A stretch of 64,000 bases of DNA from Sporosarcina oncorhynchi. GTDB taxonomy: Bacteria; Bacillota; Bacilli; Bacillales_A; Planococcaceae. The notes under the pieces were generated by a model. It searched no databases. It had not been told where the DNA came from and worked only from the letters and a program-made list of their open reading frames with translations. Made by a program: the position numbers and the translations under genes. Positions 19,036 through 38,605 of this stretch are shown in pieces. The DNA is taken from contig NZ_CP129118.1 of NCBI RefSeq assembly GCF_033304615.1, forward strand, positions 1,732,001 to 1,796,000, in the 5' to 3' direction. The stretch's first letter is position 1, and the number at the start of each line of letters is the position of its first letter.

Positions 19036-19090
19036 GAAAAAGAGGGCCGCCCGATCCATCTGTTAGCCAGACTTTGCGGACGGACCCCCT
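19036..19090 (-). terminator. Terminator after hbs
   Basis: An 11-12 base GC-rich stem (GGGGTCCGTCCG / CGGGCGGCCCT, some mismatches) with a long loop is followed by TTTTT on the minus strand. It lies directly after the hbs stop. Confidence 0.7.
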
Positions 19091-19105
19091 ATGTAACCTT
19101 AAAGA

Positions 19106-19378
19106 TTACTTGACAGCATCTTTAAGAGCTTTACCTGCTTTAAATGCAGGAACCTTGCTAGCTGCAATTTCAATTTCTGCACCAGATTGCGGATTACGTC
19201 CTTTACGAGCAGCACGTTCGCGCACTTCAAAGTTTCCGAAACCAATCAATTGTACTTTATCACCATTAGCAAGTGTCGATTGGATTGTATCGAATACAGC
19301 TTCAACCGCTTTAGTAGCATCTTTTTTAGTTAGACCCGCTGCTTCAGCAACCGAGTTGATCAATTCTGTTTTATTCAC
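19106..19378 (-). CDS. hbs: DNA-binding protein HU
   Basis: HU (90 residues) is the abundant histone-like DNA-bending protein. Residues [20 protein letters not shown] at the start and the arm [15 protein letters not shown] with conserved Pro are diagnostic. The second GTG (19378) is used as start since AGGAGG is eight bases away; the first GTG at 19387 would be inside the ribosome site. It lies between folE and spoIVA as in B. subtilis, but its upstream region is filled by a tandem repeat array. Confidence 0.96.
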
Positions 19379-19416
19379 ACCATTCACCTCCTCTCAATGG
19401 GAACTATACTTTAGAT

Positions 19417-19769
19417 GCTCCGAGTGGCAGCCGTTCGGGTCGTTTCAGAATTACCGAAAGGCAAAAAACGCCTTTGCAGGAATTCTTCCAACGCCTGTCA
19501 CGGCTAAACGCCACTCTCCGCTTTTCTTTTGTCCAGCTCCGAGTGGCAGCCGTTCCGGTCGTTTCAGAATTACCGAAAAGGCAAAGGACGCCTTTGCGGT
19601 AATTCTTCCAACGCCTGTCACGGCTAAACGCCACTCTCCGCTTTTCTTTTGTCCAGCTCCGAGTGGCAGCCGTTCGGGTCGTTTCAGAATTACCGAAAAG
19701 GCAAAGGGCGCCTTTGCGGTAATTCTTCCAACGCCTGTCACGGCTAAACGCCACTCTCCGCTTTTCTTC
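19417..19769. repeat. Three tandem copies of a 120-bp hairpin-rich repeat
   Basis: Units begin at 19417, 19536 and 19656 (period 119 and 120) and are nearly identical. Each unit opens with GAGTGGCAGCCG and ends with CGGCTAAACGCCACTC, which are inverted copies of each other. Inside is a second, tighter palindrome, AATTACCG...GGCAAAGG..GCCTTTGCGGTAATT. As RNA each unit would fold into a long two-tier stem. The array is 38 bases upstream of the hbs start codon. The final copy ends at a TTTTCTTCA junction with unique DNA. Confidence 0.9.
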
Positions 19770-19778
19770 ACTGTAAAA

Positions 19779-19807
19779 AGAGTAACATACTAAAAACCGC
19801 GGTGCAA
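19779..19807 (-). promoter_or_regulatory. Possible sigma-A promoter for hbs, upstream of the repeat array
   Basis: On the minus strand TTGCAC (-35, 19802-19807) and TACTCT (-10, 19779-19784) are 17 bases apart, with a TG one base before the -10 (extended -10). The -10 itself is weak. If used, transcription would start near 19772 and the whole repeat array would become the hbs 5' leader of about 390 bases. This is inference from motif spacing only. Confidence 0.4.
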
Positions 19808-19859
19808 CAATATTATCAGCGTTTCCACGCTATTTTGGCATATTTACGTAAAAACAGAA

Positions 19860-19884
19860 AAAGACCCGTAAAATACGGATCTTT
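19860..19884 (-). terminator. Terminator after spoIVA
   Basis: Stem AAAGACCCGT / ACGGATCTTT (one mismatch) with a 5-base loop lies 39 bases past the spoIVA stop, followed by T-rich sequence on the minus strand. Confidence 0.7.
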
Positions 19885-19922
19885 CGAGGGTCAAGCTTGA
19901 CAAATCGGAACTTCACCACTAT

Positions 19923-21401
19923 CTAAACGATAAATGTGATCATTCCTTTATTGCCGTCATTTACCATCTGTTCAATTGTCTCCCTAAGTCTTTTACGGGC
20001 ATTTGGTGGAACAGAAGATGTTTTGAAACGAATACTTTCTTTCATTACTTCATGCAATGGTGTACCGAATAGTTGTGTCTGCCAGAGTGCATCCCGATCA
20101 TGCAAATATGCATTTTTCAATTCCTTCAATAGATGTTGACTATGAAATTCTGATCCGATTAAAGGTGAGAACTCTGCATCCATGTCAATGCGAATAATAT
20201 GAAGGGATGGTGCAGCAGCTTTCATACGTACACCATAGAAATTATCCTGTTTAATAAGTTCCGGTGGGGACGGCTGGAAATCGTCGATTGTCGGTAAAGC
20301 AACACCATATCCAGTCTTCTTCGCCGTATCAATGGCTTCCGCATACATATCATATGATTTTTTCGCTTTTACAGCGTCCTTAACGAATAACAACCAATCT
20401 TTTTTAGTCGTCATTTCTTGCTGCATTAAATCTTCGCATACTTCAAGAAACGCCCGCTCATCCATTTCGATGTTAACGGTAGCTTTTCCTTTTCCTGCAT
20501 CCACTTCAACCACTTCAGCACTTCGCACATATTTCTCATCTTTCAGCCGCTCAGCCAACTCCTGGACTTTACGGATTTTTGATGCAACGAGGAAGCCTTC
20601 CTTGATGACATTGTCTATGGATGTATTCAGTTCATGATCTGCACCGAGCACGTCCATCCAATCGGGCTTTTGTAATTCAATGTCCGTAATTGGAAATTCA
20701 TACAAAGCCTCTTTTAAAATGAGCTGAATCTCTTGTGCATTCAATTGGTCGGCGCTAATGGCGATCACCGGCACACCATGTTTTTCATGCAATTGCTCTT
20801 TCAATGCAACGGTCCTGTCATGCGCAGGCATTTTTGAATTCAAAACGATGACAAAAGGCTTGCCGATTTCTTTCAACTTGCCTACAATCTCCTCTTCTGC
20901 AACTTCAGCTGCGGCTCTCGGAATATTGTTTACTGTCCCGTCTGTCGTCAAGAGGATACCGATTGTGGAATGGTCACGGATTACTTTATCCGTACCGATG
21001 CGGGCCGCTTCCTCGAATGGAATCGGTTCATTATGCCAAGGCGTATGGACATACTTCGGGCCATCCTCGTCTTCATAACCTTTCACACCATCGATGACAT
21101 AGCCAACACAGTCCGCCAGCCTCACTTGGAATGAAAGTTCTCCGTCCCCGATTGAAACTTGTGTGCCTTGTGCGGGAACGAATTTAGGTTCGGCTGTCAT
21201 AATAACTGGACCTGGCGAACTTTGAGGCAATTCATCTTGCGCCCTTGCCCTGTCTCCCGCATCCGTCATATTTGGTATGACGACTTCTTCCATCACCCTT
21301 TTCACGAACGTCGACTTCCCGACACGGACAGGGCCCACTACACCTATATAAATATCCCCATCAGTTCGTCGAGCCAAATTTTCATACAACTCTTCTTTCA
21401 T
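19923..21401 (-). CDS. spoIVA: Stage IV sporulation protein A, coat basement-layer ATPase
   Basis: SpoIVA (492 residues) is an ATP-hydrolysing protein that polymerises on the forespore surface and forms the base of the spore coat. The Walker A motif GPVRVGKST is at 23-31 and a D-x-x-G element, DCVGYVIDG, near 97-105. The conserved C-terminal region, used in other species for anchoring to SpoVM, is present to the end. Length equals that of the B. subtilis protein. AAAGGAGGG precedes ATG 21401. Gene order hbs-spoIVA-yphF is conserved. Confidence 0.97.
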   Translation of the reverse strand: MKEELYENLARRTDGDIYIGVVGPVRVGKSTFVKRVMEEVVIPNMTDAGDRARAQDELPQSSPGPVIMTAEPKFVPAQGTQVSIGDGELSFQVRLADCVGYVIDGVKGYEDEDGPKYVHTPWHNEPIPFEEAARIGTDKVIRDHSTIGILLTTDGTVNNIPRAAAEVAEEEIVGKLKEIGKPFVIVLNSKMPAHDRTVALKEQLHEKHGVPVIAISADQLNAQEIQLILKEALYEFPITDIELQKPDWMDVLGADHELNTSIDNVIKEGFLVASKIRKVQELAERLKDEKYVRSAEVVEVDAGKGKATVNIEMDERAFLEVCEDLMQQEMTTKKDWLLFVKDAVKAKKSYDMYAEAIDTAKKTGYGVALPTIDDFQPSPPELIKQDNFYGVRMKAAAPSLHIIRIDMDAEFSPLIGSEFHSQHLLKELKNAYLHDRDALWQTQLFGTPLHEVMKESIRFKTSSVPPNARKRLRETIEQMVNDGNKGMITFIV

Positions 21402-33065: not shown

Positions 33066-33782
33066 TCACTTTGGTATTATTAATTTTTGTCCTACTCTTA
33101 TATCATTTGACGATAGACCATTCGCTTTCTTGATCTTTTCAACACCAACATCTGATCCGTAATAATTCATAGAAATACGGTATAACGTCTCATTAGCAGC
33201 GACAATATGTGTTGCTGACTGAGGTTTTGTTTCAGGTTTTGTTTCAGGTTTCGTTTCAGGTTTCCTTTGTGGCTTCGTTTCAGGTTTTACTTCAGGTTTC
33301 GCTTGCGGCTTTGTTTCAGGTTTCACTTCAGGTTTTTCCACTTCAGGTTTTTCTTTCCCGTCAGAAACATCATCTTTTCCATTTGCGGGAGGATTAACTG
33401 ACACTGGCGGTTTGCCCGCACCTGTATTTGTTTCTATTTTAGCACTATCGGAGTTCTCTTCCTTATCTGAATCATCCACAACCGAGACAGATCCTGCCGT
33501 CTTTCCAGGTGATATGTCCATTGTTACGTCTGATTTGTCACTAGCCGAACCGCTATCCGAACCAAAATAGAAATTATAGATCACAAACGCAAATATTAAA
33601 ATAGGAATAAACGCAAAGACCCCAAGAATAATATTTATCATCGTATGGTTAGAGGTTTTTCTCGACTTGCGTTGTCTCCCATGCCGTTCAATTCTAGAAG
33701 GCAATTGGTCATCGGTACCATTGTTCAGATCTATTTCTTTACGCTGTTCTTCGAAATCGGTTTTATAATCATTATTATTCAT
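33066..33782 (-). CDS. ypbE: LysM-domain membrane protein, YpbE-like
   Basis: A 238-residue protein: a basic cytoplasmic N-terminus (to about 45), one transmembrane helix (about 47-70), a long Lys/Pro/Glu-rich linker with repeated KPETKPE-type units (about 145-190), and a C-terminal LysM domain (about 193-236, THIVAANETLYRISMNYYGS). LysM binds peptidoglycan, so the protein likely links membrane and wall. The repetitive linker is low-complexity and variable. ATG 33782 is preferred, with AGGAG nine bases upstream. It sits beside ypbG-like and recS. Confidence 0.85.
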   Translation of the reverse strand: MNNNDYKTDFEEQRKEIDLNNGTDDQLPSRIERHGRQRKSRKTSNHTMINIILGVFAFIPILIFAFVIYNFYFGSDSGSASDKSDVTMDISPGKTAGSVSVVDDSDKEENSDSAKIETNTGAGKPPVSVNPPANGKDDVSDGKEKPEVEKPEVKPETKPQAKPEVKPETKPQRKPETKPETKPETKPQSATHIVAANETLYRISMNYYGSDVGVEKIKKANGLSSNDIRVGQKLIIPK

Positions 33783-38331: not shown

Positions 38332-38446
38332 AGAGTTAAAAAGGCAACATTAAATAAGGGATTAAATAAAGAATGAAAATCCTTTATTCCCGCACTTAAA
38401 TACGCACCCTTTTTGTAGACAATACAAAAAGACGGCTGCACCTTCA

Positions 38447-38568
38447 CCTTCTCCCATCCAGACTATACTGTCGGCTCTGGAATCTCACCAGAATCAGCTG
38501 TTAAGCTCGCGGGCTAAGAAAATTTCTTTTCTATTTCCGCCGGTCGGGAATTACACCCTGCCCCGAAG
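38447..38568 (-). ncRNA. FMN riboswitch (RFN element)
   Basis: On the minus strand the conserved RFN blocks appear in order: CTTCGGGGCAGGGTG, then TTCCCGACCGGCGG, GCCCGCGAGC, GATTCTGGTGAGATTCCAGAG, and the closing GTCTGGATGGGAGAAGG. The element controls ribU about 330 bases downstream. Recognition is by direct match to the consensus. Confidence 0.95.
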
Positions 38569-38605
38569 ATGAATCAATATTAGATTACGTTACTATTGTA
38601 TACAA

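Follow-up and report, generated by a model that had tools for sequence, protein, structure and literature searches.

A dispersed palindromic repeat element, probably mobile, forms a three-unit array in the predicted hbs leader of Sporosarcina oncorhynchi

The window analysed here is a 64,000-nucleotide stretch of the Sporosarcina oncorhynchi genome (contig NZ_CP129118.1), in which hbs, the gene for the HU protein, lies on the minus strand (19106–19378) and is read from a GTG at 19376–19378 into MNKTELIN; the open reading frame list puts the start 9 nt earlier, at 19387. hbs gave a single match at E ≤ 1e-30 in 59 of the 61 genomes of the genus, and two partial matches in 2. Ahead of the gene, and all on the same minus strand, are its ribosome-binding site (AGGAGGT, 19386–19392, also part of the pattern searched in relatives) and three hairpin units arranged head to tail, delimited by a covariance model at 19656–19765 (unit 1, the first to be transcribed, 126.7 bits), 19536–19645 (unit 2, 124.5 bits) and 19417–19525 (unit 3, 116.1 bits). 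The spacer between units 1 and 2 (19646–19655) consists of TGGA and CAAAAG, as judged from the sequence and from spacers compared among arrays, and that between units 2 and 3 occupies 19526–19535. Beyond the array is a candidate hbs promoter (19779–19807), with a -35 hexamer TTGCAC (19802–19807) and a TG-extended -10 hexamer TACTCT (19779–19784) 17 nt apart, so that along the minus strand the promoter is followed by a gap of 13 nt, the three units, a further 38 nt that includes the ribosome-binding site, and the GTG of HU. The array begins a few bases downstream of the predicted transcription start. Farther upstream, a terminator-like hairpin (19859–19885, minus strand, from a terminator scan) lies behind a minus-strand gene of 492 aa (19923–21401), which we take to be spoIVA. 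Tandem Repeats Finder returned an array at 19417–19768 with a period of 120, 2.9 copies and 96% matches, in agreement with the initial annotation, which had described three near-identical copies of about 120 bases ending 38 bases before the hbs start codon.

Three other features of the window were recorded. A 239-aa open frame on the plus strand (19074–19793) runs antisense across hbs and the entire array, but is unlikely to be a real gene; the repeat period, being divisible by three, helps to keep the frame open. An FMN riboswitch (38442–38574, minus strand, 117.9 bits) was recovered in the Rfam search, and a tandem repeat of 12/24/36 bp, a coding-type period, was found at 33222–33353.

The candidate hbs promoter is far from consensus, with three of six matches per hexamer by hand count, and it is absent from the output of a consensus scanner that demands four of six per hexamer. 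We searched 61 hbs loci of the genus for TTGCNN, 15–19 nt and a TA-type hexamer followed by a ribosome-binding site, and found this pattern in 57 of the 61 genomes, always with 17 nt between the hexamers and with a -10 of TACTCT (56) or TAATCT (1); the four loci lacking the pattern were left out of the 57 readable leaders. The promoter call is supported because the same layout is conserved in these 57 genomes, and the array, lying between the conserved promoter and the ribosome-binding site, is on sequence grounds very probably inside the hbs leader, as had been proposed. The leader is predicted to extend from about 19773 to 19379, or approximately 395 nt.

Folded alone, units of 119, 120 and 113 nt had predicted energies of −48.2, −57.2 and −54.5 kcal/mol (z −4.4, −6.2 and −6.3), and for each unit none of 200 shuffles was as stable, which bears out the nested hairpin ascribed to each copy; the opposite strand of the middle unit folded about equally well (−51.5 kcal/mol, z −6.5). 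Folding of the leader, which had been recommended as a check, gave −185.7 kcal/mol for the stretch 19350–19773 (z −9.1). In this predicted fold the ribosome-binding site is not free, with five of its seven bases paired to early codons at 19353–19360, and the array pairs with itself, except for a spacer that pairs immediately upstream of the ribosome-binding site, where the transcript 5′ end also pairs. At the gathering score the array matched no Rfam 15 family, and relaxing the threshold to E values up to 5 yielded three microRNA-type hits far below their cut-offs. We also considered that the units act as attenuators, in which an apical hairpin (GCAAAGG/CCTTTGC) followed by CTTTT could end transcription within the leader. 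Terminator-like matches do occur on the hbs strand at 19717–19701 and 19597–19581, and five such sites were found in 601 scanned bases compared to 0.6 in shuffles. However, two of the five are on the opposite strand and a third is that of the upstream gene, the apical pairing competes with a much longer stem, and the tail is merely CTTTTCGG, making attenuation extremely unlikely.

The unit is dispersed through the genome. A BLAST search with one unit matched 17 places in the 3.48-Mb S. oncorhynchi genome, and a covariance model of 110 positions built from 39 units, with consensus ends AAAAGCGGAG...GnAGC, matched at least 55 places (63 candidates scored), with 41 units in 13 arrays in the re-searched stretches. 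These matches define a noncoding element of about 114 bp, AAAAGCGGAG...GGAGCTGGA. With the covariance model, the element was detected in 60 of 61 sampled Sporosarcina genomes, in 114 of 150 genomes sampled from the order, representing 13 of 17 genera, and in 31 of 250 genomes of the class, 15 of them from the same family and 16 from nine other families. An exact-pattern scan of named genomes matched 95 stretches, of which the 80 listed came from Sporosarcina, Psychrobacillus or Filibacter. Viral contigs contained no match to the exact pattern, and plasmids and phages gave no blastn match. The initial annotation had proposed a regulatory role for the array upstream of hbs and had suggested a genome search for other copies, naming many scattered copies unconnected with hbs as a result that would refute its reading. 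Such copies are what the search found, and a regulatory link to the gene is unsupported.

We then compared the hbs leaders of relatives. The distance from the -10 box to the ribosome-binding site was 28–42 nt in 46 of the 57 readable leaders, too short for an array, and 77–386 nt in the other 11. The element, hereafter A, was present in seven of the 11 long leaders (7 of 57 overall, assigned partly by eye), with three units in S. oncorhynchi, two units in two other loci (one of these another subtype), one unit in two loci (one degenerate), a composite in one and a short remnant in one; between species, the number of units at hbs ranges from 0 to 3. The remaining four long leaders held non-A inserts, comprising a palindromic element, B, in three (one a remnant) and an insert, C, in one, and all A, B and C inserts lay between the same promoter and ribosome-binding site (partly by eye). 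Empty hbs sites were seen in loci L243 and L244, which read GTGTTGAAAG joined to CAATTACATTT, and the same site is filled in L242.

The leuB–leuC gap offers a second site of this kind. Among 30 loci inspected, which were the best 30 matches among 56 genomes with insert families assigned partly by eye, five contained A and one contained B. In a comparison between species, arrays at leuB–leuC had 1, 2, 2 and 4 units, two of these arrays containing runs of N. The proportions with inserts, 6 of 30 at leuB–leuC (A or B) and 11 of 57 at hbs (all inserts), are indicative only, because both sites were chosen for a known insertion and the 30 loci are the best matches of 56 genomes; as far as these loci go, the hbs spot does not look privileged for insertion.

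The other inserts have features of their own. Family B, GGCGGATGTCACGGATTTTGAA...TTCAAAATCC...CAATTACG, occupies the same kinds of site as A (by eye), being found in the hbs leader of L057, L065 and L066, behind a terminator in L209 and in the leuB–leuC gap of L328, and in the hbs leader of L053 a B module is apparently nested within an A unit (by eye). Insert C in the hbs leader of L061 is of yet another sequence, with 185 nt from the -10 to the ribosome-binding site. A third hairpin repeat, GCCGTTACGAAGAACGGC-like, was noticed by eye in the folE–hbs gap of L052, L053 and L055, in tandem in L052.

These comparisons bear on whether the array is a dedicated cis-regulatory leader of hbs, with three similar RNA domains responding to some signal and thereby determining the level of HU. 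The whole array is contained between the conserved promoter and the ribosome-binding site, its folds are strong, its structure covaries (see below), and the predicted pairing of the transcript 5′ end and an array spacer just ahead of the ribosome-binding site would suit such a role. Yet 46 of 57 readable relatives have no room for an insert and four others carry inserts of different sequence; the element is neither conserved upstream of hbs orthologs (7 of 57) nor rare elsewhere (at least 55 matches in the genome), and it lacks an excess of G-U over A-C pairs outside three special pairs. We therefore consider a dedicated hbs leader very unlikely. Of the initial interpretation, the promoter, the position in the leader and the expansion of the units were upheld, and the regulatory role was not.

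To describe array anatomy, we took a census of 80 of the 95 stretches (L067–L146), nine S. oncorhynchi loci and the window, omitting 4 of 193 model matches (three antisense self-matches and one 43-nt AT-rich match) and joining units on the same strand into arrays; besides the three antisense self-matches, no opposite-strand neighbors were listed. The resulting 189 units formed 96 arrays, of which 44 were single, 25 double, 19 triple and 8 longer, with up to seven units. Within the 52 multi-unit arrays, spacing was 119–125 nt in 87 of 93 cases. Nearly all arrays (94 of 96) overlapped no predicted gene by more than 30 nt, according to a simple open reading frame scorer that missed at least one gene (in L009). 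Spacers consist of T(G/A)GA plus 5–8 nt that often repeat the left flank. Flank repeats were tested in the 87 of 96 arrays with enough sequence left before the end of the contig or locus. The left flank was repeated over at least 6 nt after the first unit in 14 (shuffled mean 2.2, maximum 7 in 200 shuffles) and after the complete array, on its right, in 7 (shuffled mean 1.5, maximum 6), the latter a weak excess. Several single copies showed no right-hand repeat, and at another site, behind a terminator, comparison of filled and empty versions made the insertion point visible, with no clean duplication. Target-site duplication thus appears clear from the flanks for some arrays only, and the spacer and flank repeats are consistent with a block, a few bases of flank included, having been duplicated on the spot, whether or not there was also a genuine target-site duplication. 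In many arrays the last unit is partial and truncated at its 3′ end, and internally deleted units also occur (by eye). Separately, one unit of S. ureae (L129) has a 5′ arm of one subtype and a 3′ arm of another (by eye), which suggests exchange between neighboring units.

Placement relative to genes is precise at the 5′ end of the element but not at its 3′ end. We scored an array end as stop-adjacent when a same-strand frame of at least 60 codons ended between 12 nt before and 4 nt inside it, using the 80 of 96 arrays that lay far enough from the ends of contigs and loci. Stop codons adjoined the 5′ end of 39 of these 80 arrays and the 3′ end of 0 of 80, compared to 750 of 18,800 random placements (4.0%). 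After orthologous sites were merged, 26 of 38 same-strand sites were stop-adjacent, while 4.3 were expected from uniform placement in the same gaps. Left flanks tend towards (A/T)AA(C/G); simulating a simple flank motif raised the expectation to 5.2 of 38 sites and a flank weight matrix to 5.1, and a target motif as the sole cause of stop adjacency was rejected on these figures. The bias recurred in other families, where a stop was found at the 5′ end of 16 of 36 arrays and at the 3′ end of 0 of 36 (random 603 of 14,400, 4.2%), in a nonrandom set from eight genomes of four families whose 35 loci were the listed best matches, 15 of them from one genome. TAG, TAAG or TAAC, however, closes the left flank of 16 of these 36 arrays, so that in the distant families the stop may belong to the target motif or to the element. 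The leuB reading frame stops at one and the same residue in all 30 loci, whether an insert follows or not; the leuB stop was therefore not brought in by the element, and supply of the stop by the element is ruled out at this one site checked for a native stop. Other arrays are preceded by a terminator T-run or lie antisense against a ribosome-binding site (by eye). With respect to the upstream gene, 56 of 86 arrays are in sense orientation, and in 30 of 86 that gene is on the other strand.

Because of its dispersal, the differing unit numbers at one site, the filled and empty hbs and leuB–leuC sites and the placement of its 5′ end at stops, the element looks mobile, and we consider it probable (roughly 0.78) that all three units derive from a dispersed palindromic element, non-autonomous and of the MITE, bcr, ERIC or REP kind, that entered the hbs leader and multiplied there. 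On insertion its 5′ end would have come to lie at a position resembling (A/T)AA(C/G), a few bases downstream of the hbs transcription start, after which a 120-bp block, made up of the unit and 5–8 nt like the left flank, would have been duplicated in place to give three units, either by slippage or by unequal exchange at short direct repeats. The near-identity of the units supports the recent expansion suggested in the initial annotation. Several observations count against this reading, namely the commoner sense orientation, the 3′-truncated end units, which simple slippage does not predict, target-site duplications that are clear for some arrays only, the failure to find a transposase or autonomous partner, the stop-like left flanks in the distant families and, from the structure described below, the conserved internal loops and the excess of G-U over all pairs.

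Covariation was assessed on the best 150 of 193 matches (147 distinct). In this alignment, whose fitting to the model favors the structure, 94.8% of cells were paired and two-sided changes occurred in 32 of 36 pairs; the covariation score was 0.595, compared to 0.189 when shuffled and at most 0.114 when slid. Pairing reached 96.8% of cells in the outer helix, which corresponds to terminal inverted repeats. If the structure were maintained as RNA, G-U should be accepted more readily than A-C on its own strand throughout. Over all 36 pairs, G-U exceeded A-C (274 vs. 69; 37 vs. 18 in close relatives), and most of the extra G-U cells came from one loop-closing pair, G-U in nearly all copies, and two internal-loop pairs. 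With these three special pairs set aside, the counts were 70 and 66 (22 and 17 in close relatives), and an earlier, smaller set with one pair excluded gave 19 and 22; an RNA-strand signature was rejected accordingly. We read this equality as reflecting a constraint on a DNA hairpin or palindrome-templated repair, rather than as proof of RNA function, and strong covariation can accompany a mobile palindrome, so that on its own it is no proof of RNA function. The internal-loop bases (GACA/CGA and GGA/GA on the modelled strand) are 89–100% conserved, which could reflect a folded RNA with its own function and would be explained by a functional folded strand of either RNA or DNA.

These data leave some room for a role in RNA at many sites, as for REPs, in which a hairpin just after the stop slows the ribosome or protects the 3′ end of the mRNA, copies are kept for that role and the hbs copy is an off-pattern case. 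The 5′ ends beside stops in both array sets, with 3′ ends never so placed, the conserved internal loops and the retention of elements across species at some orthologous sites would agree with such a role, and ribosome stalling has been reported for E. coli REPs that lie within 15 nt of a stop (PMC12306157). On the other hand, copies also lie behind terminators, presumably outside the upstream mRNA (by eye), the upstream gene is on the other strand in more than a third of arrays (the 30 of 86 above), unit number per site drifts, and G-U equals A-C approximately outside the special pairs. A general RNA role is thus possible, though we regard it as doubtful. Under the favored reading of a mobile element, the hairpin would most likely be maintained by a mover that recognizes the folded strand, as single-stranded DNA or a cruciform, together with hairpin-templated repair, rather than by RNA function.

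No transposase or autonomous partner was found for the element, the candidate tested being PF01797. This domain represents the Y1 (RAYT/IS200-like) transposases, which might move the element via a folded single strand, as for REPs. The palindromic architecture would suit such an enzyme, PF01797 occurs in 46 of 61 genomes of the genus, and median copy number was 21 in genomes with the domain and 7 in those without, a difference that was nonsignificant (p = 0.21). However, the rank correlation between copy number and PF01797 was weak (ρ = 0.22, p = 0.086), 6 of the 15 genomes without the domain contained 27–60 copies, and no copy lay within 1.5 kb on either side of the sole PF01797 gene found in S. 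oncorhynchi. In addition, the flank repeats between units do not, to our knowledge, fit Y1 chemistry. Mobilization by a Y1 transposase is therefore improbable. That sole PF01797 gene (L036; G000:C1:563126-563452) sits in a 221-aa open frame just behind a gene with an apparent in-frame stop (by eye), which is presumably yifB/comM-like. A broader possibility, which we think unlikely, is a Bacilli-wide mobile element with a folded single-strand substrate, whose 5′ end would be joined behind stops and terminators by an undescribed enzyme, possibly one copying the strand into a break. The folded single-strand substrate is suggested by the conserved G-A internal loops, the nearly strict Watson–Crick stems and the lack of a clear strand signature, and strand copying into a break by arrays that grow in place and often end 3′-truncated.

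For hbs itself, transcription would be expected to produce long stem-loops ahead of the ribosome-binding site. According to a review, RNase J1 trims most hbs mRNA as far as the initiating ribosome, following endonucleolytic cleavage (PMC3997798); should the same apply in S. oncorhynchi, the leader would be expected to tolerate an insert. We would expect ribonucleases to trim the stem-loops, with a modest effect on HU.

Among known systems, the bcr1–bcr18 repeats of the Bacillus cereus group are likewise interspersed and intergenic in Bacilli; bcr1–bcr3 are described as MITE-like, and mRNAs are reported to contain about half of the bcr copies of one strain and 40% of those of a second (PMC3446304). 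bcr1 is specific to the B. cereus group, going by the title of a reference in PMC3733652, whereas the element, compared to bcr by description and not by sequence, occurs in 13 of 17 sampled genera of its order and in nine other families of the class sample. Bacterial MITEs are described as 70–300 bp long, noncoding, often near genes and transcribed (PMC3733652), and the element resembles ERIC, RUP, NEMIS and EFAR in size, in being noncoding, dispersed and located between genes, and in having terminal inverted repeats in the form of its outer helix; compared again by description, those families belong to other hosts, while the element has tandem arrays and sharp placement at stops. Bhal-1 of Bacillus halodurans, reported as a stem-loop family of 74 nt with 36 copies and conserved structure (PMC2267715), is similar by description as a repeated stem-loop family of conserved structure, but shorter than the unit of about 110 nt. 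REPs, which have also been treated in PMC2817692, are reported to be 20–40 bp long, to carry a GTAG or CGTC tag (PMC3733652) and, in E. coli, to affect translation when within 15 nt of a stop (PMC12306157). The element is like them an extragenic palindrome found in good part right after stops (39 of 80 and 16 of 36 arrays), but differs in its unit of about 110 nt, in having neither tag at its consensus ends (by eye), in its head-to-tail arrangement with a 120-nt period, and from RAYT-associated REPs in having no clear association with Y1 genes, with none flanking the S. oncorhynchi PF01797 gene. We found no name for the family in the literature searched, which comprised titles and abstract openings and included few subscription journals, and the part of PMC4666352 available to us contains nothing on it. 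We conclude that this is probably an unnamed element family of a known kind of repeat, with unusually sharp placement at stops and arrays formed in place.

A riboswitch-like leader of HU is thus replaced by a widespread element family with no match in Rfam 15. Its placement at stop codons parallels that of E. coli REPs despite different size and sequence, and the parallel provides a testable case of either convergent placement or a shared effect on translation termination.
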